From Branchiostoma floridae (taxonomy: Eukaryota > Chordata > Leptocardii > Amphioxiformes > Branchiostomatidae): a stretch of DNA of 64,000 nucleotides. Position 1 is the stretch's first letter; each line of letters starts with the position of its first letter. The stretch spans positions 670,895-734,894 of the forward strand of contig NW_023365714.1 in NCBI RefSeq assembly GCF_000003815.2. The letters run 5' to 3'. The notes under the pieces are model-generated. The model had not been told where the DNA came from. It did not search any database and saw only the letters and a program-made list of their open reading frames with translations. Shown piece by piece: positions 1 through 52,010 of this stretch. The position numbers and the translations under genes are program-made.

Positions 1-1280
1 CATCAAATTTTTCCTTGGTTTTCAATGTAATAATGTACATTCAAGTTTAAGAAAAGGAAAACACAAAAACAGAGGACTGAGGGGAAAAGTTGAACCCAAC
101 AATGAATCTCACCCCCTGAAACTGTGCAGACTTTTCTCTCACAGTCTGTCTATTTTCACATTGATACATTATACTCATTGTTGAGCATCAAAATCTCCAG
201 AAGTAAATTTCCATTTTTTTTACCCAGTTAGAGATTGATTTAAATTTGAGTATTGCAAACCTGGATGTCAAACCTTAAAAAAACAGTGTAGCATTATATT
301 TTGAAATCCCAAACAAACAAATTACATTGATGTGGCCCATAGAGACATCCAATAGGTTAGCCCAAAGTCTGTCTACCATGTTAAAGACACACACACAAAA
401 CTCTGCCACACTAAAAGCATTTACCAGCCATCCCACACTACCCCATTTTGCTAATGGTACAGCCCAACATGTGCATATCTACTGAGTGCTGTAGGAACAC
501 TCCACTTCACAGGAGGGGGTTACGGGTACAGAGGGAAATGTGGTAGGAAGGTTCTTACTGTCTGCACTCCATTTGTCCTGCCGCCACCCCACTACAGGAA
601 ACAAGGGGGCAAAGGTCAGGGTCAGAGGTCACCAACATGCCAACACCACTACTCACCATGGACAGTTTTAGCCTTTTTTGCAAAGTTTGGTTTGAGGAAC
701 TCTTACTGGAAATTAAGTCCAGGGAACTGGCATAGTTAAAGGGTACAACATTTAGTATAGGGGAGGATGTATTGGATCCTAATTGTTCAAACCTCACACT
801 GCAAAGTATGCAGAAAATGCAGTCTTAGGGTTAAACACCTTATAACATTTGAAAAAGAAATAAAAGTGTGTATTGTACAAAGTGTACACATGTACTTGTA
901 CATATAGAGAAAAGGGCATCATATGCAGAAGTGTAAAACAGTTTTGACGGGGATGGATGGAAAATGTGAGAATGGAGGATTTACAAGATTTTGTTTGTAA
1001 GATTTCAGACTTACTTTCCACTTCTGTTGGTAAACATAAGCTGCTGTTTTGTAAATGAATGTATTTTGTGGAATGTCTTTAAGATTTTAATGGAATGTCT
1101 TAAGACTTCGATGTAATGTCTTTGAGAAGTGTGACTCACTCTCCATGCTCCATTTTTGCTGGTGAACTCAAGCTAAATGAACAGAAAATTTGGATTTTGT
1201 GTATAAGATCCTACTGAAATATCTTTAAGACTTTGATGTAATGTCTTTAAGACTTTGACGTAATGTCTTTAAGACGTGTG
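1..1280. other. Parvin intron, left edge
   Basis: No further parvin exon could be identified here. Holds a cluster of nuclear-receptor-like half-sites (613-631) and degenerate repeats of a phrase like aagactttgatgtaatgtcttt (about 1070-1275), a short tandem array leading up to exon 5. Confidence 0.5.
613..631 (+). promoter_or_regulatory. Three AGGTCA-type half-sites
   Basis: AGGTCA (613-618), GGGTCA (619-624) and AGGTCA (626-631). The last two form a DR1, the usual spacing for RXR-, HNF4- or COUP-type binding. Intronic; occupancy is unknown. Confidence 0.35.
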
Positions 1281-1286
1281 ACTCAC

Positions 1287-1433
1287 TCTCCATGCTCCAC
1301 TTCTGCTGATGGTTCCACCTCGGCAGGTTCAGCAGGCGGTTTGTCGTGTCCAGAACCGTCTTCAGCTTCTGTTTCTGTCCCTGCTCTGATTGGGTCACCT
1401 CCGCCACCTCTAGCTTTATATCTGCTAGCTTCT
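1287..1433 (-). CDS. PARV: Parvin exon 5 (middle of CH1)
   Basis: Acceptor TTTACAG, donor GTGAGT at 1281-1286, phase 1 in and out. Encodes (E)KLADIKLEVAEVTQSEQG, QKQKLKTVLDTTNRLLNL and PRWNHQQKWSME; the VAEVTQSE and QKQKL motifs are parvin signatures. Its 5' half is repeated four to five times in the upstream intron. A fragment of its donor end recurs at 1128-1157. Later exons are off the window. Confidence 0.92.
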
Positions 1434-4400
1434 CTGTAAACATCAACAACATAAACAACAACACTGTACATGTAAATAACAACATAATAATCGACAACAA
1501 CAACATTTATTCAGCTTCTGTTTCTGTCCCTGCTCTGATTGGGTCACCTCCGCTACCTAAAGCTTTATATCCGCTAGCTTCTCTGTAAACATAAACATAA
1601 ACAACAACAACATCATTTAGTCTGCTTCTGTTTCTGCCCCTGCTCCGACTGGGTCACCTCCGCTACCTCCAGCTTTATATCTGCTAATTTCTCTGGAAAC
1701 AACAACAAACATTCACTATAAACAACAACAACATTTATTGTAAACATCAACAACAACATTTATTCAGCTTCTGTTTCTGCCCCTGCTCTGATTGGGTCAC
1801 CTCCGCTACCTCTAGCTTTATATCCGCTAGCTTCTCTGTAAACATAAACATAAACATAAACAAAAACAAAAACATTTAGTCTGCTTCTGTTTCTGCCCCT
1901 GCTCCGACTGGGTCACCTCCGCCACCTCAAGCTTTATATCTGCTAACTTTTCTGTAAACATCAACAACAAACATTTATTGTAAACATCATTGACAACATC
2001 TATTATAAACAACAACATTCAGTCAGCTTCAATCTGTTTTTGTCTTCATATCTGCTAATTTCTCTATTTGATGTTCAAGAATATTGCAGTGGGAGTTTAC
2101 ACAAAGAAGATTGGGAAGGGTTGTGGTCCTTAGGCTGGGAAGTTAAGCCGTGGTCCACTGTCCATTGTGCTTGTCAAAAAGAGCTAGGGGCATTTCCCCT
2201 GTTAAATGAACCTATAGTTTCTGCTCTGTCATGACCAGGGGAAGACTAGCTTTTCAGTAAGGTAAAACCTGGATTGAGATCCCCCTTTTTTTCGTGCACA
2301 AACGAGAAGTTTCCGACCTACCGATGAGTTTCCCGAGGATCTGACCATCGAACAGATCCTCCTCGATGTCCTTCACGATGATCCTGTTCTCCACAAGGGT
2401 GTCGTTTATCCACTCGATCAAAACCTGGATCAGACAACGGTCGTAAATAACAACAAACAAACAAACAAACTTCTCTACAGACACTGATGTAAATGATCCG
2501 GTTCTCTACAAGAGTGTCGTTTATCCACTTGATCAGAACCAGCATCAACAACTCAAGGGGTCGTAAATAACAACAAACAAACAAACAAACAAACAAGTCC
2601 TCTCTGTGGGCACTGAGGTCTAGCAAGATGAGTGTTGCTGATCTTCTTTCCAACACAGGAGACCACAAAGGACTATTAATGAACAGACATTCAGCCTGCT
2701 GATTATGAGGTAGCTTTATAGCACCAACTCTGTATGTATTACACAAACCTTGGACCTAAAAGAGGATGAGGGTAGACTGTGTGTCTGAGAACTGTTGGTG
2801 TTAGTTTTGGTGGATTATTATCCAGAGTAAGTCCTTCACACCAATTAAGGCAGTAAGTCCATCTTCAGTCCTCCCTGAGTATGTCCATTTTCAGACCATT
2901 GGACTTGCTGTGGGTGAAAAAAGGACTATAGTCCATGGTAAGTCAGCGTGCAAAATACCACTTACACACTTGCACATTGCAACCACTTTTAGCTTGGTGC
3001 AACTTACCTCTAAACTCAGGTTGCACAGGGTGCAACTTAGATTTTGATCATCAGAACTCGATTTTGTTGTCAATTTACGTGGAAGAAATAAATGGACCGA
3101 GGCAGCTACGTTTCATATCAGCCAAACATGTATGTATTGTACCTTTTTTCAGAAGTTAGTGAATTGTAGGTGGCGCAACTTGCAATTCAGTTGTGCAACC
3201 TAGTTTTTGCCCCAGGTTGCATACTGTGCAACCTGGCTCAGAAAAGTATTTTGTACACTGTAAGTTGTTCATAAGTCCAAGGTTTTCCAATGTGTTAAGG
3301 CAGATGGGAGAAGGTTCAGCTAAGGTCATGTGTATCACAACAGTTGTTTCTTTCTTTCTGCAGAAGTCCTAAGTTTCAGTTGAGAAATCAGTGAGTGGAG
3401 ATCTTATTTAGTGTTAGAAAAAAGTATGAACACTTTAGGGACTGTGGGGTTAGACTAGTACATACGCATTTATATGGACTAGTCCATTAGGAAAGCTAAG
3501 GAGGGATCGTCCTCCCTTTCTGTTTTGATCCATGCTCACTGCAGGTGAGAAGAAAACTCTGTTCCCACCTTCTGCAGCTCCTTGAACTTGAGGTCATCTC
3601 TGGAGGCGGGCTCGATCATGGACCGCTCCTCCCCCTCATCTGGAACACAGCATTGCCATGGCAACCATCACAATCAGACATCATAAAATCACAAAACATC
3701 AAAACTCTCAACTACAGCTGCACTGATTTTCCCTTAGCCTAAGATTTCAACTGTACAAAGGATGGAATCTGTGAATCCATTTCTAGTTCTTCCTATGTGC
3801 CATCATGAATCATGGGTAGAAAACCTGACCCTAATGACACGTCTCGTTGACAATCATATGTTTATGGATTGCTAACGACTAAAATTCTCATGTATAATCT
3901 GTATCTATGTTCCATTCTACCTTAAAAAGATTAAAGTTTGCAGAACACTGCCTTAGGAGCAAGGAAATAATTGCTGACCTGGTACTCTGGGCACCCAGGC
4001 ATGGTAAGAGGAGGCCAGGTACATGTAGGCAGACAGCATACATAGACAGACATACATAGACAAGCTCAAGAAAGACACCGGCCTTCTTCCATTCTGCCTT
4101 ACCCTTACCTGCTTGAAACCCTCGTGGCATCAATGAAAAGTGGCCTTTTTTAGCTCTTCATGAGTATCTAAATGCTGAAACAAACAAACAAACAAGCAAA
4201 CAAACATGACAGCCTTACCCAGTATGAAGGTGCCCGCCAGATCAGGTGACAGGGACGGGTCGTCGATGGCATGTTTACCCTCCTCCTGTAGCTCGTTTAC
4301 TGCAGGGAAAATAAACAAACAAACAAACAAATAAAGCACCACATAACACAATGTTGTTTGCAATTATTGTTTCTTACTTTTGGGATGTGGTTTATTTTCT

Positions 4401-7400
4401 AATCCAGTTTCTTGTAACCGCATACTAGTAAGTAACCTAAGAGTAAGTGATCGCAACTTTTTGCTTATACTTCCCAACTTAATATAGAAGAAGTTAATTT
4501 GCAAGTTCTTGCCCGAGGGCTAATTGCAACATGAAACATACAGAAAATATAGTAAACATACATAAAATAAAGTAATTTGGTATAGATACCAATGGTGGCA
4601 AGTGTAAACAAGTGACTATTCTATCAATGATATGGACTGCTGAGAGCTACAATCTACGCATTTGGGGTTTGACTTCTTTTCTGAAAGCAGGGGAAGACAA
4701 ACTTTCACGTCACAAAGTACCCCACTTTTTCTATGATGAGTGGGTTATGTGACATTAACAGCGTTATAGTTTTGTTTTCGTCGGTAAGCGTTTGGAAATT
4801 TTGTGTGTTATAATATAAGACATTATTTTTCATTCCATTTTATCACCATGGTTACGGCATGAACACAATCTGCCCATGTGGCATGATGGACAGAAGATAT
4901 TTTACCAGATATTTACAGAAGATATTTTGACGATGATGGAGGCCATAAAGAGGTTTTACAATGTCAAGTTTTGTTAATCAGCAGCACAATTCCCCCTTTC
5001 ACCCCCTCCCTACAGACAGCGGAAGGCTGTTGGCACCAAATGTGTGTTGGTTATGGGCAGGTAGAAGTTCACACATACATGTACATACCTATTGCCTAAT
5101 GCCCATTATGGTACTAATGTAAAATGCCTAAAACATTGAGTAGCTTTGCACAGATTATACTTTGGCAACACTTTGTCCTGGTTNNNNNNNNNNNNNNNNN
5201 NNNNNNNNNNNNNNNNNNNNNNNNNNNNNNNNNNNNNNNNNNNNNNNNNNNNNNNNNNNNNNNNNNNNNNNNNNNNNNNNNNNNNNNNNNNNNNNNNNNN
5301 NNNNNNNNNNNNNNNNNNNNNNNNNNNNNNNNNNNNNNNNNNNNNNNNNNNNNNNNNNNNNNNNNNNNNNNNNNNNNNNNNNNNNNNNNNNNNNNNNNNN
5401 NNNNNNNNNNNNNNNNNNNNNNNNNNNNNNNNNNNNNNNNNNNNNNNNNNNNNNNNNNNNNNNNNNNNNNAGATAGGTCTCACAACTTGACCCCCACCCA
5501 AGAAGAAAGGACCTCGTAAGAATCGTTTTACGGCCGCCGCGTTTCAGCAGATTTTCTACACACGCATCCCAGAGTCCCTCCTGACAGAACGTAAGGCGGC
5601 CATCTCAAACCTTCGTCTCGGTACACCTTCTTCTCCTTCTTCTTCTCTTTCTCCTTGTCCTTGTCCTCCTTAGGTTCCACGAAGGTCGTCTTGTGTCTCT
5701 TGAAGACCCTGGAGTCTTCCTCGTCGTTTTCCTTCGCCTCGTGGGTCGTGAAACACGACATTCTGACGGGCGCGGCGGGTTTTTGTTTCTGTTCACACGT
5801 CCAAATCTCTCGCAGGCACCACTACAGGCAGGCTGAGGGTGCGCATGGGGGATCACAGGTCGCTGGAAATGTCAGGTCTATTTTGGAGCTGGATGACCTG
5901 TGGGGGTCTCTGGGGTTAATGAGGGTGTGATGGGGGTGACACTGAGGCCTTCCTGTACCAGATGAAGGTTTCCAGACTGTTGTTCTTTTGGTAAGTAACG
6001 AAGACTTGGGTTCAAGGTTTTCAAAACTCAAATTACAAGTTGATAAAAACAAAGCAGTGCTTCTGTTTAGATAACAATTATTCAATACGTAAACATATAC
6101 CATTCAGTTTCACTACAGACTCTCTACAATTGGTTCCTCATTTCCTTTTTTATTGATTAAGTTACAAAACACCATATGGCAGTGTTAAATTGATTGAGCA
6201 CAATCAATTTATGGTGTTCTACTTCACTGTGAATATTGGAGATAGTTTTCTGTTGTTGCCATTTGTTTGTGTCTATTTTTTCAATGTATGATTAGAAAAA
6301 GAAATTAGATTTTGACCCATTTCTGCTAAAATAACATCATCAGAACCGGAGACTCTGATTGGTCCAGCCCACAGTCTGGATGATGACATCATTATGGTTG
6401 GTCAGCCAACCTGACAGGTAATCAGCAGGGGCCAGGGGTCAAACATGGGAGATGGGGAGCTTCATTGATTAACTAATATGGTGGCAGATTGGCAAACAGA
6501 TTTTCTAACTTCTCAGACAGAGACGACAACCAAAATAATGTGTGAACAGCTGGTTTGTCACAAGGCAAAAATGGGTTATATGGGGAAATCCAATTTCCAA
6601 ATTAAAAAAAAATAAATATAATCCATATATTTCATTATAACTTACAAGTTGGATTCTGTGACTGAAAACTGAACAGTTTGTTGACCTGTTTTGTTGGTTT
6701 GAAGCTTTGCCATGGTGGAGTATTACTAGTAAGGGCGGCTAGCCTGTGTTAGTGAATCACTTCTCCAACTGTTTACTTGCCTCTTATGGAATGGATGCTT
6801 GATGCCGGTCCCTTCCAAACAGTTAATTAAGTCTAGCCAGGATGTTCCATTGTGGTAGTATGAAGGGTTCTGGGCCAAGGGGCACAGGTACACACAACAG
6901 CACAGTAGACAGTACATAATATACCCTATGGCCTACACTATACACTACAGATGCAGACAGTACAGTCTGGGCAGGACATGAACAACTCTGCCACTGATGA
7001 CACAACTGATACTGATAGTCATTGTGGAACCATGTCTGACTGCTTCATGTATTCATCAACACTGACAAACTATTCAATTAATTGATTGATCGATTTGATT
7101 ACATTTACCGAACTAACAGTTCGATATCTGATAAAGGGGTGTGGCCCATTGAGTACAGTATGTAAATTCCACCATATCACTTTAACTTACAGTCGGCTCT
7201 AGATCTGTCATATAAAGAAATATCTTGTAACCCAGGACTTAATATAAGGCTTGTATTACAAGATCAAGTTCCCTACGTGCTCCCGGAACCCCCATGCACA
7301 CCCCACAGTTCGCTCCCTGAACATTCCGGGAATTCCTACACAAATATGGCAGCTATTTCACGGGCCGACTCCTGCCAGATCGATTTAACTCGTTTTCTAT

Positions 7401-7757
7401 TCATAGCTCCTCACTCAGACCGGCCCGGCACGGTAATATTTGATACCCTGGCCCAGAATTCAGGCCACGACATTAATATCGGCGCTGGGGAAAGGAAACG
7501 GGGGCAATTTTGACCCGAGTTCGTCTCACAACACAGGAAGTCCGGTTTCCGACAAGACCAACCTCCGCCCTGAACTTTAAGAAAAGTTCTTTCCGGTATT
7601 AAGAAAGAGATGACAAAAAGGTTAAGATGGGCTATTACTTGGACTTACCCTCTTTCGCCTTGTGCTTTTTTCTGGCCAGAGTTCCGCTGATTTTGTCGAA
7701 AAAAGACTCGTCTTTTTTGTCTTTCTTGAACGTCGGAGTTTTGGGTGAAGTCGCCAT
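1287..7757 (-). CDS. PARV: Parvin (actopaxin/affixin family), N-terminal part, 5 exons joined
   Basis: Parvins are cytoplasmic adaptors of the ILK-PINCH-parvin complex at integrin adhesions; they link integrin to actin through two calponin-homology (CH) domains. Five exons (7649-7757, 4219-4299, 3569-3639, 2322-2424, 1287-1433) join on the minus strand with GT-AG sites and matching phases (1,1,0,1,1) into 511 nt, 170 codons plus one base. The start MATSPKTPTFKKDKKDESFF and the stretch GTLARKKHKAKEVNELQEEG match the parvin N-terminus. Residues about 64-80 match the family's E-E-x-R-x-M-I-x-P linker. CH1 begins near residue 87 (KVLIEWINDTLVENRII) and continues with VAEVTQSEQGQKQKLKTVL. The rest of CH1 and all of CH2 must lie left of base 1. 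Vertebrate alpha- versus beta-parvin cannot be decided; a pre-duplication single gene is expected in an invertebrate chordate. Confidence 0.92.
1500..2070 (-). repeat. Tandem partial copies of parvin exon 5 with its acceptor
   Basis: Units at about 1511-1590, 1621-1700, 1764-1845 and 1880-1962, plus a degenerate one at 2021-2070, each repeat the first 70 or so bases of exon 5 with its intronic acceptor, separated by AACAAC-rich spacers. Three units (1621, 1764, 1880) keep the 23-residue reading EKLADIK...QKQK unchanged with synonymous differences only; the 1511 unit has one in-frame stop (GAG to TAG). No unit has the exon's donor. Confidence 0.9.
2322..2424 (-). CDS. PARV: Parvin exon 4 (start of CH1)
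   Basis: Acceptor ATCCAG, donor GTAGGT, phase 0 in and 1 out. Encodes VLIEWINDTLVENRIIVKDI and then EEDLFDGQILGKLI, the first helices of the first CH domain. A partial copy of its 5' half lies in the upstream intron (about 2480-2550). Confidence 0.92.
2480..2560 (-). repeat. Partial copy of parvin exon 4
   Basis: Repeats the first 16-17 codons of exon 4 (reads VLIKWINDTLVENRII), with five synonymous differences and one replacement (E to K). The acceptor AG has changed to TG, so it is not a usable 3' splice site. Flanked by CAAA runs (2450-2470, 2571-2597), which suggests duplication of a roughly 120-bp unit. Confidence 0.8.
2960..3250. repeat. TTGCAAC/GTTGCAC-rich interspersed element
   Basis: Many inverted short words (ttgcac, gtgcaac, gcaacct) occur around both ends of this roughly 290-bp intronic stretch. 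It looks like a decayed palindromic element, but I could not define termini or a target duplication. Confidence 0.4.
3569..3639 (-). CDS. PARV: Parvin exon 3
   Basis: Acceptor TTCCAG (3640-3645), donor GTGGGA (3563-3568), phase 1 in and 0 out. Encodes (D)EGEERSMIEPASRDDLKF and then KELQK, the acidic linker just before CH1; the phase-0 junction into the next exon's VLIEWIN reproduces the family's K-E-L-x-K-V-L-I-x-W junction. Confidence 0.9.
4219..4299 (-). CDS. PARV: Parvin exon 2
   Basis: Acceptor CTGCAG at 4300-4305, donor GTAAGG at 4213-4218, phase 1 in and out. Encodes (V)NELQEEGKHAIDDPSLSP and then DLAGTFIL. The NELQEEG motif directly follows exon 1's KAKE in known parvins. The flanking introns carry short CAAA runs (4179-4206, 4312-4336). 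Confidence 0.9.
5184..5470. other. Assembly gap (287 N)
   Basis: Run of N inside the first parvin intron; ORFs crossing it are meaningless. Confidence 0.99.
5611..5761 (-). CDS. Candidate alternative first exon of parvin, Lys/Glu-rich
   Basis: An ATG at 5759-5761 opens 50 codons beginning MSCFTTHEAKENDEEDSRVF and continuing with a highly charged K/E/D run (residues about 28-45). A GTTTGA donor at 5605-5610 would end it in phase 1, the phase parvin exon 2 needs, so it could replace exon 1. The surrounding 5.52-5.83 kb is CpG-rich, as in a promoter, and the ATG has A at -3. The donor is weak (T at +3), and the Lys/Glu run comes from a simple GAA/GAG-type repeat, so a chance ORF or a separate small gene is possible. 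No known family recognised. Confidence 0.35.
5800..7640. other. Parvin intron 1, no gene recognised
   Basis: AT-rich intronic sequence. Only a small palindrome (about 6185-6211, taaattgatt...aatcaattta) stands out. ORFs of 60-90 codons have no recognisable domain. Confidence 0.5.
7649..7757 (-). CDS. PARV: Parvin exon 1 (start codon)
   Basis: Encodes residues 1-36, M-A-T-S-P to K-A-K-E, and ends in phase 1 at a consensus donor (G|GTAAGT, donor at 7643-7648). The Lys-rich start and the GTLARKK motif are typical of parvin N-termini. The ATG at 7755-7757 sits in a good context and just downstream of a ZNF143-like promoter motif. Confidence 0.92.
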
Positions 7758-7766
7758 GTTGTTGTA

Positions 7767-7783
7767 TCCCAGCATGCACCGTG
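7767..7783. promoter_or_regulatory. ZNF143/STAF-like motif at the parvin start
   Basis: TCCCAGCATGCACCGTG lies 10 bases upstream of the parvin ATG and closely matches the core of the ZNF143 (SBS) promoter motif, TCCCAGnATGCA. This motif typically marks transcription starts of CpG-type promoters in animals, so the main parvin promoter is probably here. Confidence 0.5.
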
Positions 7784-9027
7784 GATCGTAAAGCGTATTT
7801 ACGTGTCAAAGGTTATCGGGACATACCACTCTTTATTAGGAGTGGGCTCTGTAATTGCTACATGTAATTACGCAGCTTCATTATTTATTTATCACGGCTG
7901 TTCAACGCGATTAATTTCTGCGGGGAGTCAACACTTAATTAGCTCCAAAATACCAACATATTACCTCAAGTTTTTCTTCATATTTGCCCATGCGTAAGAA
8001 ATCCATCTAAACTGTATTAAAGTTTCATCACGTAAAACTGTGTGTAATACCACTCTTGCTCACTAGGCGTCACTTCTGTACCGCATGCACTGTTGTGTGT
8101 CCAAGGAGGTTTTATCAATTTGGGGACAGAAATTGGTTGCCAATTATGTTCAATCTAAGTAATTCTGGTACAAACCAATTCTGGTACCAAGCTAAATTCA
8201 AATTAATAATAAATTTACGAATCAACATTCTATGGGAGGGACGTAAAACGGGGGTCCCGTGCTCGAGGAGGTGCCTCGACCACGTTAAACAGCCTCATTA
8301 CCCACACTTTGGGTACCTACTGGCTGCAAAATATACCAGATGATTATGCCCCATTTCTGTACTCACTTTATGGGCATGAAGAAAATTAATTTAATTAGGC
8401 CCGACAACACATCACACATGCTGTGTTGTTTGGCCTTTAATCAATTTGAGTGTACATACCATGCAGAGGTCTGGTTTCGAATTCATGACCCAGAGATTGA
8501 AACTAAACAGCAGGGTTTGAGGACAGTATGTAAAGAACCCACCACACATCAATGAAGGTCAGGTTACACCATGTAATGGCTAAAACTATGCAGGATCTGA
8601 GGGCACCACCAAAAACAGTATTTCATAAGGCCATGTTGATTTTATTATATGGATGTCATCTGTGTGCACATCAATTTTTGGCCGTGTCCGAATATAAAAA
8701 AAGTTTCAGACAGGACTGAAAATCATACAAAGCAGCTGAATCGTGATGCATAGGAAAACAGTATTTAAGTCACAGATTGTCAAAATCACTCCCAAAGTCA
8801 AACAAAGAAGGAGAAACATGTACACAGTACAGAAATAAAAAATCTGTCATTCGCTATCCCATATATTTGCTCAACCTTCAGTCCACATAGATTTCATAAG
8901 AAAGGCAACATTTTTTTTTCTTAACTCTTTTTCTTTTATTTGCACGCTCGCATCAGTTTTAGGGTTCCCAAATGATGTTATCCATATAATCAAACTAACA
9001 TGGCCTTAACTGGTGTGTCAGGCCATC

Positions 9028-9147
9028 TTGTCTCACCAGACCTACTGTGCCTTAGAGATAGTATCAAAGCTGTCCGGCTACACTCCTTGCCCAGCTTTCA
9101 TACTATCTCTAAGGCACGGTAGGGTCTGCTTGGAGACTAAGGCCATC
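9028..9147. mobile_element. Palindromic MITE (CTCCAAGCAGA termini)
   Basis: Arms 9041-9064 and 9100-9124 (cctactgtgcc...tatcaaag versus its complement) form a hairpin. The right end carries gtctgcttggaga, the same terminus as the element at 43135-43309. Confidence 0.6.
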
Positions 9148-9444
9148 AGGGATTTCATTCATGCAAATATAACTATAAATGCTATTTACACACTACAAAG
9201 AGAACACCACAGACGTGCCCAGAGAAATCAATATACCTGTATTATATCATTTTCACAGAGAAACAACTTTGGTAACAAATCATTCTTACATCGTACATAC
9301 AGGAGTACAGATCAGCCCATCGTACATACAGAAGTAAAGTTCAGCCCAGACGTTTGGAAAAGCACCACGGATGGGACCATCGACCGTTTGGTCTTCCACT
9401 TGCCACTATATGTTGTTTATTATTAATATTACATTATTTCATAT

Positions 9445-9648
9445 CAGGGCTCGAAATACCACCTGCATATGCAGGTTAGTACAGGTAAAATTGGAGCTGT
9501 GCAGGTATTTCAAAACTAGCAATGGTTCCTGAACAATTTAAGTATGATTTCCTAAATTCAGAGTGCAGGTAAAATCTGTCTGGTGCAGGTACTTATCAAC
9601 ATTACCTGCACCTGTGCAGGTATACAGAAAAAAGTATTTCAAGCCCTG
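9445..9648. mobile_element. MITE, CAGGGCTCGAAAT termini, TGCAGGT interior
   Basis: Starts CAGGGCTCGAAATA and ends TATTTCAAGCCCTG. Flanked by a perfect 5-bp duplication CATAT (9440-9444 and 9649-9653). The interior is built of repeated tgcaggta/acctgca words. A related right half lies at about 61890-62079. Confidence 0.85.
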
Positions 9649-10388
9649 CATATGGAGCTTTAGAAAAGACTTGGGTAGTCGTAACAGTGCTATAGTAATG
9701 ATGGTAGATGTCATTGTTGTTGTTTTTTACCAAATTTCACTTTAGGTATCACATGTACAGGTTTAACGAGTGAAACTACAAGAAAACATTGGTATAGAAA
9801 CAAGCAGATGTACAGACTATATAGTGTACTTTACGAAGTGAAAATATTTCTTGTTTATTAGAGGATTTCTCAGCGCGACGGCTTTTACAAAGCCCACCCT
9901 GTCCCCCCCTAAATTGGTGTTTCACACCTTCCATGGGTGATGGTTATCAGTTAATTTTGAAGAACATACCACTATCTGTAGGGGGTCTTGGCAGATTTTT
10001 TTTCATTTTTTATTTTACAAAACTACTCATTTATATTCACACTTTTTTGTTCCACGATATCCACTCTCGTGTATAACCATTTCCTATATATCATTTATCC
10101 ATCATTAGAATAAATTTGCATTATACACAATATCTGTAATACAGGCCACACCTTATACAGAGGCGGGCTATAGTTGTGGGTATCCTACTGTCAGGCCATA
10201 CCAAAATATTTCCTTGGTTCTCCAATGTCTTAATGTGTTATATATAGCAAGCAGATAAAACCAGAGGGTAGGGAGGAAAACTTGGAGAAAACAGAGTGAA
10301 TCAAGGCATACCGAACAACATGTGTGAAGGCGTCAATCTTATTATGTTCTTTCATCCGAAATTAGTTTCATCAGGTTGGTAGAATTAA

Positions 10389-10479
10389 TATAGGATGAAG
10401 CAGAATTCTTGTGACACAACCAGTGGTAGGCTATGTAAGTACCCATTAATTGTGTAACAAGAATTCTCCTTCATCCTAT
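10389..10479. repeat. Short inverted repeat
   Basis: Arms of about 23 bp (ataggatgaagcagaattct and its complement) around a roughly 45-bp loop; probably a small MITE or its remnant. Confidence 0.55.
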
Positions 10480-11442
10480 GTTCTTTTAGTTCTGCACATT
10501 TTTTTCTATATGTGAGAGAACCAACAAATTAATTTGGTACGGCCCTAGTTACGCTGATTGTGGTGCAATTTCTAGTTCTGCAAGACGCCCCTAACAAATT
10601 TTCACGCCCCAAAATCTGAGCCTTCATCACCAATATGTACAATACATTCCCTTCTTATAGAGTTCACTAATTTACTAAGAGTCACTCAAAATTAATGTAA
10701 GATTAATACATAAAACAGAACAGCTAATAGATATTTATAATTTCATTCTTTTAAAAATAACACCTAATATAATAGTAGTATTTAATAGTTTGAGCACTTT
10801 CCTTCTGGGGTACAAGGGTCGGGGGACTGTACCATTGCAGCAAAGTAAAGGGGTGTTGTGTGATTACAACTCGACACTGATTTGTTCGTATGTACAGCTC
10901 GCATGCATTTCAATACTGTTTACCATGTAAAAAGTCTTTATTTTTCAATATCATGTATCATTTATGTGCTGCAGATATGCCCTCTTTGCTGTAGTTACCA
11001 GGGTGATAGTTGCCATGGGAACATGTCAACACCTAAAGATGAAGTTAACGCCTGAACATCAGTTTTTAAGAAGCTTTAACATCGAGTAAAAACCCACGAT
11101 CTAATTTAAACTCTAATTTGACCACTTGTACTTGATTAGGAGAGTGCTCCTCTACACCTAAATGAGGTTGGATACTCAAATATGACAGCATTTTTTTTAC
11201 ACAGAAAAACTCGATAAAAGAAGTGGAATCAAACACAGACATAGGGAGGAAAATACGACAAAAAAACAAACGGCAAAACAAAAACTCGCAGAAGTTTCCG
11301 AATCAACCTGTGACCATTATGTACATAGCTAACATCTTCCCCAATTTTTGGAGCATTGGAAGAATGATTATTATAACATATGACGGAATCCCCCCTACTG
11401 TAAAGTCTAAGCGCCCAATGGGAGCCTTCTGGTTGGCTGCAG

Positions 11443-11684
11443 CTACTGTGGAACGTCCCATATCTCTGAGAGGAGGGGTGGAATCTTGTGGTTCTCCACC
11501 TTGAGAGCGAGGAGCTGCTCACAGTGGGTGTTGTTGATGGCTCGCAGGTCAGTCAGCTTCATCAGGATCCGGGGCAGGAGGAGCCGGTCCGAGGGCATCG
11601 TCGTCTTGATGTACGCCTGGAGAGTCTCGAGGAACACCTCCTGCATCTTTTCTACAGTGTGGTGGTCGCTTACATCAGCACGGT
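11443..11684 (-). CDS. LXR: LXR terminal exon: helices 9-12 and stop
   Basis: CCCCAG acceptor, phase 1 in, 79 codons and TAG stop (11443-11445). Helix 9-10 segment ([40 protein letters not shown]) and activation helix [12 protein letters not shown]. The conserved E in LLSEIW needed for coactivator binding is present. Two partial copies upstream. Confidence 0.95.
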
Positions 11685-14600
11685 CTGGGGGGAGGGAGGC
11701 AGAGATAGTCAACATTAACTACTACAAACATACACCAACACAAACATCGTCGTCTTGATGTACGCCTGGAGGGTCTCAAGGAACACTTCCTGCATCTTTT
11801 CTACGGTGTGGTGGTCGCTCACATCAGCCCGGTCCGGGGGGTGGGGCAGAGATCGTCAACATTAACTACCACAAACATACACCAACACACACACACACAA
11901 AGATACATCAACACACACACAAACATACACCAGCACAAACATCGTAGTCTTGATGTACGCCTGGAGCATCTCAAGGAACACCTCCTGCATCTTTTCTACG
12001 GTGTGGTGGTCGCTTACATCAGCCCGGTCTGGGGGGAGGGGGGGTGGATTGGGAGATATTCAACATTAACATAAACAACAAACATACACACACAAAGACA
12101 GACATAGACAGACAGACACACACACAAAAGCTCACAAACACTTCCTGCACCTTCTGGCCACAATAGTCTACTTACTCAAACCATTTATATACACCAGGGC
12201 TAGATTGCTCATTTCAGGAAAAGAATATGGACCATGTCAATTCCACAATACATTACTGTACTATTTGTGCAGTCCCTCACCCATCCACAAGGTGGCACTG
12301 CTGCATGGCTAACTACCCAGCAAGGCCCCCTAGCACCCACCTGGGGAGAGCACGATGATGGAGGCCAGGATGGCGTAAGCCGTGTCATCGATGTGGACGT
12401 TCCTGATTCTCTTGGAGAAATCGTACATCGGATTCACCAGCTCCGTCAACCCTGCAGGGGGCAAAGGGCAGAGGTCAATCAAGGCCCCCTACACCTACCC
12501 GGAGAGAACACTTTTCTAAATGTTTCCTTAAGTTTTCTCAAACATGATTTCGGATGTACAAGGTACATTCTAAAGACTGTATTCAGGTTTCTGTGATTGG
12601 TACGTCACTGAATAAAGAGACTCTTCTTACACAAGCATTGCTTTATCCTCATCGACGTTTCGGTGACTGTCTGTCACCTTCCTCATTGCAATTCTGACTC
12701 TGAAACGTTGGTTAGAATAAAGCATTGGTTGTGTAAAAAGAGTCTCTTTATTCTGTATTTATGTTTCCATTTTCCTTACCTGCGTGTTTGAAGTTGTGTC
12801 TGCTGTACGGGAGCCCATTCCAGAAGTACAACATGTCCATCTTTTCATCGTATCTCCTGGCAACGTCCAGAACCAGAATCTGTAGAACAGAACAGAACAC
12901 AACAGAACAAATGTTAGCTGCAATGCACAACTAAACAGCTAGGGGGCAGTGCTGACACACAACATGCCCATTTTCTCATCGTATCTCCTGGCAACATCCA
13001 GAACCAGAATCTGTAGAACACAACAGAACATAAGTTAGCTGCAATGTGTAACTAAACAGCTAGGGGGCAGTGCTGACATACAACATGTCCATTTTCTCAT
13101 CGTATCTCCTAGCAACTTCCAGAACCAGGATCTACAGAACACAACAGAATAGAACAGAACACTTGTTAGCTGCACTGCATATTTAAATTGCTAGGTGGCA
13201 TGCATGGCCTTTCCAGAATACAACATGTCAAAAAGAAGCAAGGAGATTTCCTTTTCTCGATGACTGATGACGATCCAATCCTCCCGTGTAAGTCTGAAGA
13301 ACCCAGGGATCGTCTTACAGAAATTCTAAGATAAGAAAGGCGGAGGTTTCCTTACCTCGATGGCTAAAGACTTAAGGAGGTTTCCTTACCTCGATGGCTG
13401 AAGACTTAAGGAAGTTTCCTTACCTCGATGGCTGAAGACTTAAGGAAGTTTCCTTACCTCGATGGCTGAAGACTTAAGCAGCACAATCTGGTCCTCCCGT
13501 GTGAGTCTCAGAAACCCCGGGATCCGCTTGCTGAACTCCACGATGGCCTGCACCCCCAGGATGGTCAGGTCTGTGAAGTGGGAGAACCTCGCCTCTGCTG
13601 CCTCCTTCGACTGGTCTGAGTCATTCGGCCACGGCTGAGGGGAACAAACAGAGCTTTGATTAATAAAGAATTTGTAAAAATAATACTACAATCACATCAG
13701 ATGGATCAACTTTAAGAGAAGCTCTTAATGTTTAAGAAATAAAAATACTAGGTCAAAAACTGTCACGTGTTTAACGTAGAAATCTAAGGGTTGTGGTGTC
13801 ATATTGAAGGGACAGACGGAGTTTTCTTTGATGAAGGTCAAACATCGAGGTTAACAATACTAAAAGACAACTCAATCTCTACAACTGCATTAGTAGATTA
13901 TTTCTAACTGAGCTCTCAGGACTCCCCAAAAGGAATTATCATAAACTTACAAAGATGCCGACAACTTCAGTCAGTTTAAGTATCGAACATCAAGTTTTAG
14001 GAATACCATTTAAGGATTTTACACAAGACATTTTGTGTAGATCCTTTGAACTTCTATTAGACTTCAAAATCTTTTAATCTAATCTTTCTCAATAGTTTAT
14101 GAAATTGATTACAGCACAATTAAATACTCTAGAATGTTTAACAAAGCAATAACTAGTTCATGAAAGATTAGTGTGACAAAATTGTATGACAAGTTAAGGT
14201 AACAGTTTTCTACATTTTTGGTGCCTCAAAGGAAGGCAACAATACTGATAACTCACCGTGACCTTCTCCACGTCCTCCTTACTCGGGTGCAGGACCTCCT
14301 GAACAACCACACTCCCCCTGCCCCTCCTATACTACTCCCCCTCCTGAACACCCACACTCCCCCTGCCCCTCCCATACTACTCCTCCTCCTGAACACCCAC
14401 ACTCCCCCTGCCCCTCCTATACTACTCATCCTCCTGAACACCCACACTCCCCCTGCCCCTCCTATACTACTCACCCTCCTGAACACTCACACTCCCCCTG
14501 CCCCTCCTATACTACTCACCGTGACCTTCTCCACGTCCTCCTTACTCGGGTGCAGGACCTCCCTCTGCGCCTTCAGCAGCTGTTCTACGATCTCCGTCTG

Positions 14601-17600
14601 TTCCGGCGACATTTTCGCGGGAAGCGTTGGCGTGGCGGCCGCGGCAGGAGATGCGGGGTCCGTGCTCTGTCTGCGCAGCCGTTTCGCCTTGATCTGATCC
14701 TCCGATAACAAACCTGAGAAGAAAACGGCAGTTTTGTTTGTATGCACTGAATAATAAATAATTCACACATTCAACCATTGCTTTATTCTCACGAACGTTT
14801 CGTTGACCGTCTGTCACCTTCTTCAGGGCAATTCTGACTGGTTCACATTGTACTGCAGGACAGGTGTCGCTGCTCACAGTTCAGATGCGGTTACAAAACG
14901 TAAAGTATTTACATCAATACGTACAGACAGCTTTGTGCAAAATATTTACAATGCACATAGGTAAGATTAAAGCAATAATAATAATAATCATCTGGTGTAT
15001 GGTTCACGGAGTCTCTTTATTCAGTGACGTACCAACCTGATGAAACTATAATTCAAGGATGTTTACATGCAGCTTCAAGAGATTTGAATCATTTTCCTTT
15101 AAAGTCTTGCACAATATCAGCCCCTGCAGTTCCGAACATGATACTAGGTGGCCCAAACATATGCCACTGGGTGTTTGTCTTGCATTCAGTAGGTCATACC
15201 AAATGGTACATGCTCATCGAATGCTGCTTTCTCTACTTAGCATTCAGCACTAATGAGGAAGAGTATGGGAGTTTAAAGGAAAGCATCAGAAAATCTTCAA
15301 TTCATTATTTTCCAGTAGTTTACTCATTAAAAAGTTGATTTACGTCAATTTTTACATTAATCCGCCCAATATGACCCTGTAGACACGTTTGAACTTCGCG
15401 CTCTCCCGCCGCGCTGGCCGATGACGTAATGGCCTCGTTCTGATTGCCTGCGCGCTGACGTCACAAATCAGAATTGAAACTTCTGGCCATGCCAGCCATT
15501 TTGCTCGGTGAACCTCGGTCCCTTCGGCGGGAAATCACACCGCCATTCTGGAAGCCAGTCCGTTGTTGTTGACAATTAACTTCGTGGACCTGTAAGTCGC
15601 GTTGTGAGCTGTCTACGAAGCCATAGTCCCCGGGAGACTGAACATGAATTAGCTTGTCTGCAGCGGGTGAACCGCGCGGCGACGGGACGAAATCAAAACA
15701 ATGGTTTTTGGGGAGGTTCACGCACCGTGCCATTCTGGACTATTACAAGAGCGAGTTCGGGTCAGTTCTTACCTTCTCCTTTCCGAACAGCACAGTGATA
15801 ATTACACGTAAGCTTCCACGAATTTTGGTTGAATTCACAGTTGTAGACCTCGTTTGTTCTACTGACAACATACCCTTGATCGCTACATATCGAACAACCC
15901 CCTTTTCGCGCCGAAACAGATAGCACCACAACTTGTACAGATCGTGCGAGTTACGCCTCGCCTCTCACTTTATTTTCTGTTTCTCGGGTAAATTATCTGG
16001 ACTGGTCGGTTTTTCAATCATGTAGCTTTGGCGGAGATTGCTGGGGGTTCATTCAAAACAAATCACGGACTCTGAAACGAAGCCGACATTTCGCGCCATT
16101 CACAATGCCGGCCTGTGTTGTATGTAAAAACAACAATGCTGTATGTATGTTTCGGCGCGGAAGGGGGATCGTTCGATATGTAGCGATCAAGGGTATGTTG
16201 TCAGAGAATGATTTTTTTAATGTCCCTGCCAGTTGGACAATTGTGAATTCAACCAAAATTCGTGGAAGCTTACGTGTAATTATCGCTGTGCTGTCCGGAA
16301 AGGAGAAGGTAAGAACTGACCCGAACTCGCTCTTGTAATAGTCCAGAATGGCACGGTGCGTGAACCTCCCCCACCACCATTGTTTTGATTTCGTTCCGTC
16401 GCCGCGCGGTTCACACGCAGGCAAGCTTATTCATGTTCAGTCTCCCGGGGACTATGGCTTCGTAGACAGCTCACAATGCGACTTACAGGTCCACGAAAGT
16501 AATTTTCAATGACAACAAACTGAACTCCAGAATGGCGGGGTGATTATTTACCGCTGAGAGGACCGAGGTTCACCGAGCAAAATGGCTGGCTAGAAGTTTC
16601 GGATCCGTGACGTCATATACAATCTCAGACGATCAGAACGAGGCCATTACGTCATCGGCCAGCGCGGCGGGGAGAGGAGGAGAGCGCGAAGTTCAAACGT
16701 GTCTACAGGGTCATATTAGGCGGATCAATGTAAAAATTGACGTACATCAACTTTTTAATGAGTAAACTACTGGAAAATAAAGAATTGAAAATTTTCTGAT
16801 GCTGTCCTTTAACACACACTACTACCTGACAGTGGACTAGCCCCCTGCTGTAGTGACTTGCATAAATGTGTGGCCCAAGGGCTACAGAAATGAAGATGGG
16901 TGCCACCCCTAAGCATCTGTTGTGTACAGCAGGGGGCTGGTCCACTGGTAGTAATGTGTGTTAAACTCCCATACTCTTCCTCATTTAGTGTGAGTGCTAC
17001 CCACTCGGCCAATGTGTCGGCTTTTTTTCTTCTTTTTTTTTAATCAGGTTCGTAGGGCCATCACGGCCCATAGGGATAACTGTAGTAGCATCTCATCTCC
17101 CTATATTTATAAGTCAGAAACATCAAGCTTAGGAAAGCTTGACTTCACTGACTTAATAGGCGAAGCAGGGGTTACGAGGCTGCTCGGGAAATTCCCTACC
17201 CCATTTTGGCCGGAATGGTTTGATCCGCTCACATCACCACTTTCTTTAACTTGTTTATATTTCTTTTTTCTTCTTTGTTGTAGAATTCTCCTTTTCACTC
17301 AGCCAAGCAAGTTTGGTTGAACTTCTTAATTCTGTGTGTGTTTGTTGTAACTACTTTAAATGCAAGTTTGTGGGGATTTAATTTCGCTGTAGCGGGGAAA
17401 AGGACTTTTCGCGGTGGTTTTAAGTTCGCGGTAGCAACATGCACTGTTGTCTCTTACTGCTATGGAAAATGTTCGCGGTGGTTTTAAATTCGCCGTGAAG
17501 CAGCCACCGCGAAGACCGCGAACATTAATCCACCGCGAAAGTTTCTGCATTTACAGTAACTTAAAGGAAAGGGACTCACATTCCTCGAGCATGCCGACCT

Positions 17601-20600
17601 CCCTGCACTTCCTTAGCCGACACTCCTGACACTTCCTCCTCATGTACATGTCCATCTCACACTTCCCGCCGTACTTGCACTTGTACACTGCGTTCTTCGT
17701 AATGCTGCGACGGAAAAACCCTGCAACACAAGGGTCAGGGGTTAGGGGTGAAAGGTCATGTACATGTCCATCTCACACTTCCCGCCGTACTTGCACTTGT
17801 ACACCGCGTTCTTCGTAATGCTGCGACGGAAAAACCCTGCAACACAAGGGTCAGGGGTTAGGGGTGAAAGGTCATGTACATGTCCATCTCACACTTCCCG
17901 CCGTACTTGCACTTGTACACCGCGTTCTTCGTGATGCTGCGGCGGAAAAAACCTGCAACACAAGGGTCAGGGGTTAGGGGTGAAAGGTCATGTACATGTC
18001 CATCTCACACTTCCCGCCGTACTTACACTTGTACACAGCATTTTTTGTGATGCTGCGACGGAAAAAACCCTGCACAGTGACACACAAAGGTCATAGGTTA
18101 AGGATGCAAAGGTCAAAGGACAGAGGTCAAGGCCCATGTGAGATCTAATGTGACATCCTTGCCATTCTGAACTGTCACCTTCGCAGTCTGTATGACATTA
18201 CACGCTGGTCAAACACCCAGGACTGTAAAAACTTTGAAGTGATCCCCTAACCACTGAACATTGGTTTGAGACCCACAAATTGTAGTAATACCTAGCCACT
18301 CAGAATGTTGTAGGGATACCTAGATAATCAGAACATTGTAGCCATACCTAGCCAGTAGCCACTCAGAACATTGTAGTGATACCTAGCTAATCAGAATGTT
18401 GCAGTGAAACCTAACCTGTCAGAACGTTGTAGTGATACCAGTGTAACACTCACCCTTGCATCCCTCGCAGCTGAGAACGTTGTAGTGATACCCTGTAACA
18501 CTCACCCTTGCAGCCCTCGCAGCTGAGAACGTTGTAGTGATACCCGGACGCCCGGTCGCCGCAGACCCGACATAGCTCCGGCTCCGTCAGCCTGGGCGCC
18601 GGACCCTTCTTCCGCTTGACAGGGATGTTCTCGAAGCTGCCGTTGCAATCCTGCGCGGCGACCAGCAGCGCGCCGGGGTCGCCCTTTATCGTACTGTGCA
18701 CCGGCTCAGGTAACGACACTGTGGCGGGAGGGAAGTGAAAGTTAGTGAAAGTGATGATGCAATCCTGCGCGGCGACCAGCAGCGCGCCCGGGTCGCCCTT
18801 TATCGTACTGTGCACCGGCTCTGGTAACGACACTGTGGCGGGGGACAGGAAGGGAAAGTTAGTGAAAGTGATGTCAAAATTCAGCTCACAATCCTGCACA
18901 TCTCAGGTGTACAGATCAGAGAAAACAGAGATTCTCCTGTCTGCACACTGTAATGTTCTCCTCAAGCTGAATAATAAAGAAATATCTGACGAAACCAGCT
19001 CAGGGGGAACGATACTCAGGTGGGAGAAAGAGAAAGTGAAAATCTGAGTGAAAGTGATCTTTAACCAGTTCAGCTCACTGAAGACCTAGCAAATCTTCTA
19101 CTGGTCATGACAAAAGAAGAAGGACATCATATACAGTATTTACACTATAATTACAGGTTCATTGTATTAGGGGAAATTCCCCTAGCTCTTTATGACAAGA
19201 AAGTTGTACAGTGGACCACGGCTTAATATTCTGTCCTAAGGACTGCAACCCTTTCCAGCAGCGAGCAAGTCAGGCGAGTGACAACAGCCAGGATTCGAAC
19301 TCCGAACCTTTGGTCCTGAGGCAGGGTCACCTAGCCTAAACCACAGGACTACACACGCACCTGCAGTGTTACTAAACAGCAAGGAACTGTCCAAATATTC
19401 CAACATCTGCAGGAAACCAGAATCATCATGTGTGTGAATGGATCTCCTCATGATGGGATAAAGAGGAACCTTCAAAGCTCAGCGCAGATTAAACGGTACA
19501 ACCACAACCTGTTCAGTTACTCTGGAGTCACTTACACCACAGGACTACACAGTGTCACGTACCTGTGATGTCACTAAACACCAACGAACTGTCCAAATAT
19601 TCCAACATCTGTAGGAAACCAGAATCATCATGTGTGTGAATGGATCTCCTCATGATGAAATAAAGAGCAACCTTCAAAGCTCAGCGCAGACTACTCAGCC
19701 GTACAACCACGAACTGTTCAGCTACTCTGGAGTCTGCAGAATATAGGAACTATCCTGTCTACAGACGTTCTTATAAAGCTGAAATAAACACGGCACAAAC
19801 ACCACACAATCAGTTTAACTCACTGTAGCTATGGAAACCATGATGGAACTATCCTGTCTACAGTCGTTCTTATGAAGCTGAAATAAACACGGCACAAACA
19901 CCACACAATCAGATTTACTCAATGTAGCTATGGAAACCGTGACTGTACATATTTGGCACAAACAATTCCACACTAAAGTGTTGCAGCAGAAACTGATGAT
20001 TCTTCTTTTCTACAATTATCTCTGAGATTGGAACTCGACCCTCCACCCTGCAGCTGTGGTTGCTTAGCAACACGCCCACAGACATGTACAGACCTTCGAA
20101 CATATGTGATGTTGTTTAAAGCCTTCTATAATTGTTGATTAATCTGCAAGGCATTTCACATCTGCTGCATTAGCTGGCCTCTTCATGTTGTAAATTGCAT
20201 TGAAAAGACGACAGAATAAAGCCGACATACTTATAATTATTATTTTACATGAACGCAGGCTTCTCTAGTTTGACTCTATTATAACATCAAACATTACACA
20301 AGACCCCAGGCTATAGATAGCCTTTCAGCAACACTACAACATGTATACTAATGATATCAAACGGTATCCCAAACAAGCCTGAGCTCTTGGTATAACTCAT
20401 TAGAAAGACACACTCCACTCTAGTTCACATCTATTCTGATCAAATATCATACGCGATCCCAGGTCACTGATAGCCACTCTACAACACTATAAATGATATC
20501 AAAGGCACAGAAACAGTGTCTGAAATCAGCCAGCTCTAAGTATTTTTCATTAGAATTTAAGACACACTCCACTTCAGTTCACATCTATTCTGATCAAATA

Positions 20601-50479: not shown

Positions 50480-52010
50480 AACATTTTCTACTTCTTCCAG
50501 TCAGCCTGGAGTTGGAAAGTTATGTGGGACTTAAGCCGAGAGTCTGCCAGGGTTTTACACTCAGTCTGACGTCTTTTCAATATCGTATTCAAGACATACA
50601 GTAACATTTGAGGTAATACAGAACTACACATCCAGTTATAACTATCACCAGTCAAGCTTCTGGCAATCGGAGATTTTTTATTTCTAGTCAGTCTGGAATA
50701 TTGAGTGATGTGAGACTTAAGCCGAGAGTCTACCAGGCTTTTACACCTACGTCTTTTCAATATCATATTCAAGACATAACTTTTGAGGTAATACAGAACT
50801 ACACATCCAGTTATAACTATCACCAGTCGAGCTTCTGGCAATCGGAGATTTTTTATTTCTAGTCAGTCTGGAATATTGAGTGATGTGGGACTTAAGCCGT
50901 GAGTCTACCAGGTTTTTACACCTACGTCTTTTCAATATCGTATTCAAGACATAACTTTTGAGGTAATGCAGAACTACACATCCAGTTATAACTATGACCA
51001 GCTTCTGGCAATCGGATATTTTTTATTTCTAGTCAGTCTGGAATATTGAGTGATGTGAGACTTAAGCCGAGAGTCTACCAGGGTTTTACACTCAGTCTGA
51101 CGTCCTTTCAATATCATATTCAAGACATAACATTTGAGGTAATACAGAACTACACATCCAGTTATAACTATCACCAGCTTCTGGCAATCCGGATATTTTC
51201 TATTTCTAGTCAGTCTGGAATATTGAGTGATGTGGGACTTAAGCCGGGAGTCTACCAGGTTTTTACACCTACGTCTTTTCAATATCGTATTCAAGACATA
51301 ACTTTTGAGGTAATACAGAACTACACATCCAGTCATAACTATCACCAGTCGAGCTTCTGGCAATCGGAGATTTTTTATTTCTAGTCAGTCTGGAGTTAGA
51401 GAGTTATGTGGGACTTAAGCCGGGAGTCTGCCAGGGTTTTATACTCAGTCTGACGTCTTTTCAATGTCGTATTCAAGACAATCATGACTTTTGAAGTAAT
51501 ACAGAACTACACATCCAGTTATAACTATCACCAGCTTCTGGCAATCGGATATTTTCTATTTCTAGTCAGTCTGGAATATTGAGTGATGTGAGACTTAAGC
51601 CGGGAGTCTACCAGGTTTTTACACCTACGTCTTTTCAATATCGTATTCAAGACATAACTTTTGAGGTAATACAGACCTACACATCCAGTTATAACTATCA
51701 CCAGCTTCTGGCAATCTGGATATTTTCTATTCCTAGTCAGTCTGGAATATTGAGTGATGTGGGACTTAAGCCGGGAGTCTGCCAGGCTTTTACACCTACG
51801 TCTTTTCAATATCATATTCAAGACATAACATTTGAGGTAATACAGACCTACACATCCAGTTATAACTATCACCAGCTTCTGGCAATCGGATATTTTCTAT
51901 TCCTAGTCAGTCTGGAATATTGAGTGATGTGGGACTTAAGCCGAGAGTCTGCCAGGGTTTTATACTCAGTCTGGCATCTTTTCAATATCGTAGTCAAGAC
52001 ATAACTCCTA
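50480..52010. repeat. Roughly 175-bp satellite, 9 units
   Basis: cagtctggaatattgagtga marks units at 50502, 50689, 50864, 51044, 51211, 51386, 51568, 51739 and 51908 (spacing 167-187). Opposite-strand ORFs of 110-120 codons are by-products of this periodicity. Confidence 0.95.

Follow-up and report, generated by a model that had tools for sequence, protein, structure and literature searches.

Tandem duplications across exon-intron junctions of a lancelet LXR gene and its neighbour, and a modest excess of such duplications at exon edges in control genes

Does tandem duplication in a lancelet genome favour the ends of exons and, if so, what about an exon end is favoured? The question is raised by a stretch of 64,000 nucleotides from Branchiostoma floridae (contig NW_023365714.1, positions 670,895 to 734,894; the window, that is, the whole stretch analysed), in which two neighbouring genes on the minus strand, a nuclear-receptor gene of the LXR type and a left-hand gene that we take to be parvin from its protein sequence, carry partial copies of their own exon-intron boundaries. 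The first-pass annotation of this DNA had seen such copies at nearly every exon of both genes, had read in them a hint of a process targeting splice junctions or transcribed DNA, and had surmised that the phenomenon might not be new. The last point was right, such repeats having already been published in amphioxus as 'mirages' (PMC3087553, PMC3902484).

The LXR gene, which encodes a receptor of the cholesterol-sensing kind, occupies positions 11443-18718 of the window on the minus strand. In the PDB, its ligand-binding part matches LXR-alpha (3ipq; E value 1.4e-70), the Pfam-type models zf-C4 and Hormone_recep match its exons, and the exon edges were fixed by splice-site reading. Local direct repeats were detected by scanning all lags of 15-700 base pairs (bp) at a score of at least 18, and an edge was counted as crossed where the match reached over 6 bp or more to both sides; a Markov-shuffled control of 117,537 bases, made from 12 of the 20 dynein loci introduced below, gave 0 repeats. 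At this margin 7 of the 13 LXR splice edges, on 6 of the 7 exons, lie within a local tandem duplication (6/13 at 8 bp and 5/13 at 12 bp), and arrays called by Tandem Repeats Finder (TRF) coincide with the same places. Only the acceptor is crossed at exons 17720-17580, 12879-12780 and 11684-11443, only the donor at exons 14713-14520 (with 6 bp of intron only) and 13634-13458, and both ends at exon 18718-18506. The lag scan thus recovered junction-crossing copies where they had first been noticed, at LXR exons 18506, 17580, 14520, 13458, 12780 and 11443 and at parvin exons 2322 and 1287. Two further places could not be upheld: no copy was detected at LXR exon 12451-12341 down to a score of 12 with a 4-bp margin, and a supposed 46-nucleotide N-terminal exon near 19760 showed no coding support when this was looked for, TRF locating a 99-bp repeat there.

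In parvin, whose edges were set with a coding score and a splice score, 3 of the 8 detected exons have crossed edges, 4 of 15 in all at the 6-bp margin and 3/15 at 12 bp; the four are the acceptor of exon 2424-2322, both ends of exon 1433-1287 and the donor of exon 6, which lies to the left of the window. Saturation is therefore a fair description of LXR and not of parvin. When every array is collapsed to a single copy, 7 LXR edges are crossed where 1.27 are expected and 4 parvin edges where 0.42 are expected (P 0.00025 in each case); raw per-base coverage gives a weaker excess for both genes (P 0.006-0.13 for LXR and 0.03-0.10 for parvin, depending on the margin). Both genes were selected for their striking look, i.e., after the fact.

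The copies are contiguous duplications, arranged as head-to-tail, exon-specific units that cross the junction from either side. In gapped alignments the LXR units are contiguous at 6 of 7 edges, with a spacer of 0-2 bp, the seventh alignment being a trivial self-overlap; rows with such negative spacers were ignored. Unit lengths differ by locus, from 34 to 263 bp, and a cross-comparison of ten units returned 2 cross-hits, of which one joins overlapping slices and the other is 13 bp long. The ten units share no sequence family, and a search among them for sequence shared between places, as an introner-like element family would have, gave nothing longer than 13 bp besides the overlapping slices, which bears out the earlier reading of independent events. 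Copies differ mutually by a few to 16 percent, with nested ages, and they look unprotected, because exonic parts (101/1643, 6.2%) have diverged almost as much as intronic parts (95/1255, 7.6%). Most LXR unit lengths are not divisible by three, and stops interrupt the frames of the copies at LXR exons 17720 and 11684.

A frequency in genes not selected for their copies was obtained from 29 control loci, 20 of them encoding dynein heavy chains and 9 CCT, with 492 edges kept. Their exons were annotated by paralogue comparison and Pfam matches, and any missed exon counts as intron. Twenty of 21 dynein loci were taken, one on contig C10 being omitted, and dynein exon ends with a splice score of 3 or less were dropped (400/428 kept); for CCT, three apparently single-exon loci were omitted, as were a locus with a single match and, in two genes, the far part. 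Six exon calls that copied a neighbouring exon, three in locus L002 and three in L007, were removed before counting. Myosin, nuclear-receptor and kinase loci were searched in the genome and lie outside the sample, and five GFP loci, partly picked for visible copies, enter no count. About 5% of the control edges are crossed (25/492; Wilson interval 3.5-7.4%; 20 to 27 edges depending on the margin). Mirages are common in this genome, and the crossed fraction of 54% in LXR is beyond the control range, at the top of which stand L005 (3/10) and L002 (4/15).

The control edges are crossed more often than even placement predicts. Copied positions were merged by a union-find procedure that collapses each array to one copy, followed by circular shifting; 25 of 492 edges are then crossed compared with 8.3 expected, and 0 of 4000 shifts reach 25. 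The collapsed ratio is about 3 and stays at 2.7-3.0 across score thresholds of 18-40 and margins of 10-20 bp, an earlier cluster-based correction having given 2.1-2.6. The excess is limited to about 60 bp around the edges, is present in dynein alone (22/390 versus 7.1) and is seen with TRF arrays alone (9 versus 4.0). Intronic arrays are denser in guanine-cytosine (GC)-richer sequence. With GC matching the count is 24/491 versus 13.7, a ratio of 1.75 (bootstrap over loci 1.07-2.54), which becomes 2.48 (1.36-4.03) on collapsed sequence and 2.15-2.20 (lower bounds 1.16 and 1.15) when coding-like intron is masked as well. Masking on raw sequence raises the GC-matched ratio to 3.6-4.0; the mask on collapsed sequence is preferred because an array can itself resemble coding sequence.

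An exonic copy has one conserved partner, and such pairs could remain visible longer. Neutral simulations on the same 29 loci included exon constraint, small indels, the loss of exon-internal events and optional GC weighting; their pooled ratio is 1.00-1.12, and none of the 70 replicates attains 2.5 (pilot 0.87-1.34). Sorted by identity, the youngest copies (at least 97%) are enriched at edges (6 versus 1.34 expected, P 0.001), as is the class of 88-93% (13 versus 3.12).

Several results weigh against a bias towards exon edges and a simple tandem origin. Compared literally per base, as the first-pass annotation had proposed, exon-edge repeats are no more frequent than repeats at intronic points: 22/492 edges are covered with 26.1 expected (circular-shift P 0.84), coverage is 4.5% at edges, 4.6% in near introns and 8.9% in far introns, and the same test before cleaning, on dynein only, gave 30/400 edges and no excess. 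This test was demoted because an intronic array counts once per copy, whereas an edge exists once. The collapsed ratio drops to 2.0 when lags are limited to at most 300 bp and at least half of the unit must be matched, CCT alone gives 2/102 versus 0.82 (P 0.16), lower bounds after GC matching are near 1, and coding mask, GC matching and an identity of at least 95% together leave an interval of 0.56-16.6. Neither the class of 93-97% identity (3 versus 2.14, P 0.24) nor the oldest class, below 88% (2 versus 1.46, P 0.35), is enriched. Large deletions and new intron insertions, which lie outside the scope of the simulations, may contribute to the excess, and in gapped alignment two parvin units are not contiguous, their spacers measuring 22 and 46 bp. 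With numbers that are small, the age classes suggest an excess without a steady rise with age, unlike the prediction of a survival effect. Taken together, the results support a modest favouring of exon edges, about 2-3 fold (1.75-2.5 when GC-matched).

The arrays are probably best explained as mirage minisatellites, that is, inert tandem duplications that are tolerated by splicing and form with a modest bias to exon ends. Units would originate by slippage or unequal exchange, and splicing would keep the junction of the complete exon, which is the last copy on the acceptor side and the first on the donor side, so that the remaining copies would become inert intron and be tolerated; inertness is suggested by the divergence of the copies and by the stops in the frames of two of them. 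The bias, of roughly 2-3 fold, would act when a duplication forms, and LXR with parvin would be a locally very active spot. Lancelet haplotypes are very polymorphic, and the reason for the bias that we prefer is that exons would be islands of similarity between them, at which recombinational repair would engage and then misprime where similarity stops, namely at exon edges. The observations fit a bias that follows the exon as a whole stretch of DNA and not its splice signals. We put forward tentatively, as possible rather than probable, the extension that in lancelets new tandem duplications are born preferentially at exon ends by way of haplotype-similar exons, and that exon edges are hence a standing supply of material, with working splice signals, for new introns and exons. 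Some dynein cases had suggested an origin by conversion or templated insertion, the intronic flanks of young edge copies being unrelated there; this idea was dropped once gapped alignment showed the LXR units to be contiguous at 6 of 7 edges.

Of the other explanations, the one that survives best, unlikely in our judgment and yet to be reckoned with, involves no bias: duplications would arise evenly in a minisatellite-rich genome, exonic copies would be easier to see, longer-lived and GC-richer, and LXR would be an extreme gene. The raw per-base coverage, which is not higher at edges than in introns, agrees with it, as do the GC dependence of intronic arrays, matching for which moves the ratio from 2.5 to 1.75, and the choice of LXR and parvin after the fact. 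Raw coverage, however, tallies each intronic array once per copy, and the collapsed test gives 25 against 8.3; moreover, simulated decay asymmetry yields only 1.0-1.1, and the youngest class is enriched too.

Targeting of the splice junction itself, for instance through breaks or R-loops coupled to splicing, with duplications starting at splice signals, could account for an excess restricted to about 60 bp around edges and for 7 of 13 crossed edges in LXR. It is nevertheless improbable, given that acceptors (12/250) and donors (12/241) are crossed equally often in the control loci and that across 14 arrays the edge falls between 8% and 89% of the unit length, a distribution compatible with uniform (Kolmogorov-Smirnov P 0.10), which argues against an anchoring of breakpoints at the junction. 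The suspicion of targeting voiced in the first-pass annotation is thereby divided: the edge excess in unselected genes, absent from neutral simulation, speaks for it, and the likeness of acceptors and donors and the want of a fixed edge offset speak against the junction as the target. Because introns too are transcribed, edges cannot be set apart from them by transcription alone.

We give even less credence to retention of the copies by selection, in which duplicated splice signals would aid splicing or supply alternative exons. The open frame through both copies of the 114-bp acceptor unit at LXR exon 18718 and one dynein locus with 69-nucleotide exon copies and gt...ag spacers would suit it, but exonic parts diverge almost as fast as intronic ones, LXR units are mostly not multiples of three, and the copy frames at exons 17720 and 11684 hit stops. 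Least credible of all is an assembly artefact, i.e., allelic or misjoined pieces laid side by side: the window's contig, C156, is indeed a scaffold of 913,760 bases, but the divergence among copies, from a few to 16 percent, and their nested ages speak against it, as do the like structures that occur on chromosome-sized contigs; reports of other mirages, moreover, describe them as re-checked in raw data (PMC3902484) and present in two haplotypes (PMC3087553).

Table 1 Exons and exon-edge arrays of the LXR and parvin genes (window coordinates)
Feature	Position	Strand	Basis and remarks
LXR exon, first DNA-binding-domain exon	18506..18718	-	splice sites read, zf-C4 match; copies at both ends
Acceptor-side array of exon 18506-18718, unit 114 bp, 2 copies	18644..18873	-	TRF; contiguous in gapped alignment
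Donor-side array of exon 18506-18718, unit 52 bp, 2.4 copies	18421..18545	-	TRF, gapped alignment
Older decayed repeats past donor-side array of exon 18506-18718	18280-18439	-	lag scan
LXR exon, second DNA-binding-domain exon	17580..17720	-	splice sites read, zf-C4 match
Acceptor-side array of exon 17580-17720, unit 116 bp, 3.7 copies	17640..18074	-	TRF, lag scan
LXR hinge exon	14520..14713	-	splice sites read
Donor side of exon 14520-14713, second exon-end copy (43 bp exon + 6 bp intron), lag 263	14250..14520	-	TRF, lag scan
LXR ligand-binding-domain exon	13458..13634	-	Hormone_recep match
Donor-side array of exon 13458-13634, unit 34 bp, 4 copies	13342..13478	-	TRF, lag scan
LXR ligand-binding-domain exon	12780..12879	-	splice sites read
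Acceptor-side array of exon 12780-12879, spacings 131 + 121 bp, 3 copies	12816..13200	-	TRF, lag scan
LXR ligand-binding-domain exon without detectable copy	12341..12451	-	none at score 12
LXR last coding exon	11443..11684	-	Hormone_recep match
Acceptor-side array of exon 11443-11684, spacings 149 + 195 bp, 3 copies	11575..12098	-	TRF, lag scan
Parvin exon 4	2322..2424	-	acceptor-side copy at 2493-2547, lag 115
Parvin exon 5	1287..1433	-	coding score + splice score
Acceptor-side array of parvin exon 5, spacings 110-149 bp, 5 copies	1365..2017	-	TRF, lag scan
Donor-side copy of parvin exon 5, lag 147	1100..1311	-	lag scan

Some features of the two genes add to the table. The second end copy of LXR exon 14520-14713 sits past an intronic array made of 5 copies of a 45-bp unit. 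Exon 13634-13458 carries two generations of duplication, a decayed, coding-like older copy lying at 13263-13316, past the young 34-bp array. At 18450-18902 the acceptor unit of the first DNA-binding exon corresponds to 38 codons and its frame stays open across the two copies; the upstream acceptor at this exon, if used, would yield an in-frame repeat. An LXR intron contains six nested inverted-repeat pairs at 15273-16812 (45-182 nucleotides, 89-96% complementary), which together make up a fold-back element some 1.5 kb long, and in the parvin region a strongly coding-like minus-strand frame at 5612-5752 adjoins an N stretch. Outside both genes the window holds big minisatellites called by TRF, at 60701-61852 (19-bp unit, 61 copies) and at 50518-52006 (175-bp unit, 8.5 copies).

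Elsewhere in the genome, a 69-nucleotide exon end is repeated in dynein locus L002 (4975-5335, gene orientation) with a 44-nucleotide spacer that starts with gt and ends with ag; from their sequence these copies look like nascent exon-intron units. A lancelet-derived fluorescent protein has 68 exon matches in the genome, at up to 88% identity, the Pfam GFP model found no match there, and a globin search returned 9 matches. One GFP-like gene (L032, C17:14896100-14898700) has two identical copies (100%) of a 98-bp unit that straddles an exon end, in an exon that seems to hold a stop-bearing insertion of about 22 bp; another (L033, C4:24588900-24591000) has an acceptor-side partial exon copy, 97% identical, at lag 127. 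Closely spaced zf-C4 (nuclear receptor) exon matches at C4:21590000-21640000 mark a local expansion of receptor genes.

Mirages in amphioxus Adh3 were reportedly described by Canestro et al. in 2002, as related in papers that cite that work. Later papers place mirages in the globins BflGb6 and BflGb9 (PMC3087553) and in PGBD5 and troponin C (PMC3902484). PMC3087553 gives a unit range of 10-160 bp and normal splicing of the Adh3 and globin genes that carry them, and it considers mirages possibly general in cephalochordates, with an unclear route of formation; the copy number of mirages is reported to vary between haplotypes and in the soma. No genome-scale count of mirages was found in the limited paper collection searched.

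The LXR and parvin arrays resemble these in being tandem repeats that span an exon-intron boundary, with copies that carry splice signals, in occurring at the 5' or 3' boundary (acceptor only, donor only and both ends are all found in the two genes), in unit lengths that differ between loci and in their cephalochordate host. Judged by such sequence features, they may be classed as mirages, new members of an already known phenomenon. With ordinary minisatellites they share head-to-tail units, unequal copy numbers and the presence of several in the same window, and differ in lying across coding-exon edges, oftener than even placement predicts. Splice signals are duplicated as in the Rogers model of intron gain by tandem genomic duplication (PMC4974935, PMC2891723), in which a new functional intron arises inside a former exon; here the duplication overlaps an existing intron, and no new intron created inside a former exon was seen in LXR or parvin. 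If the bias is true, lancelets would allow splice signals to be observed while they are being duplicated, and perhaps introns while they are being gained. Mirages had been reported gene by gene, and unlike the published cases those described here affect most exons of one gene and come with a measured rate, about 5% of edges in 29 loci, and an edge bias estimated for the first time, at 2-3 fold.

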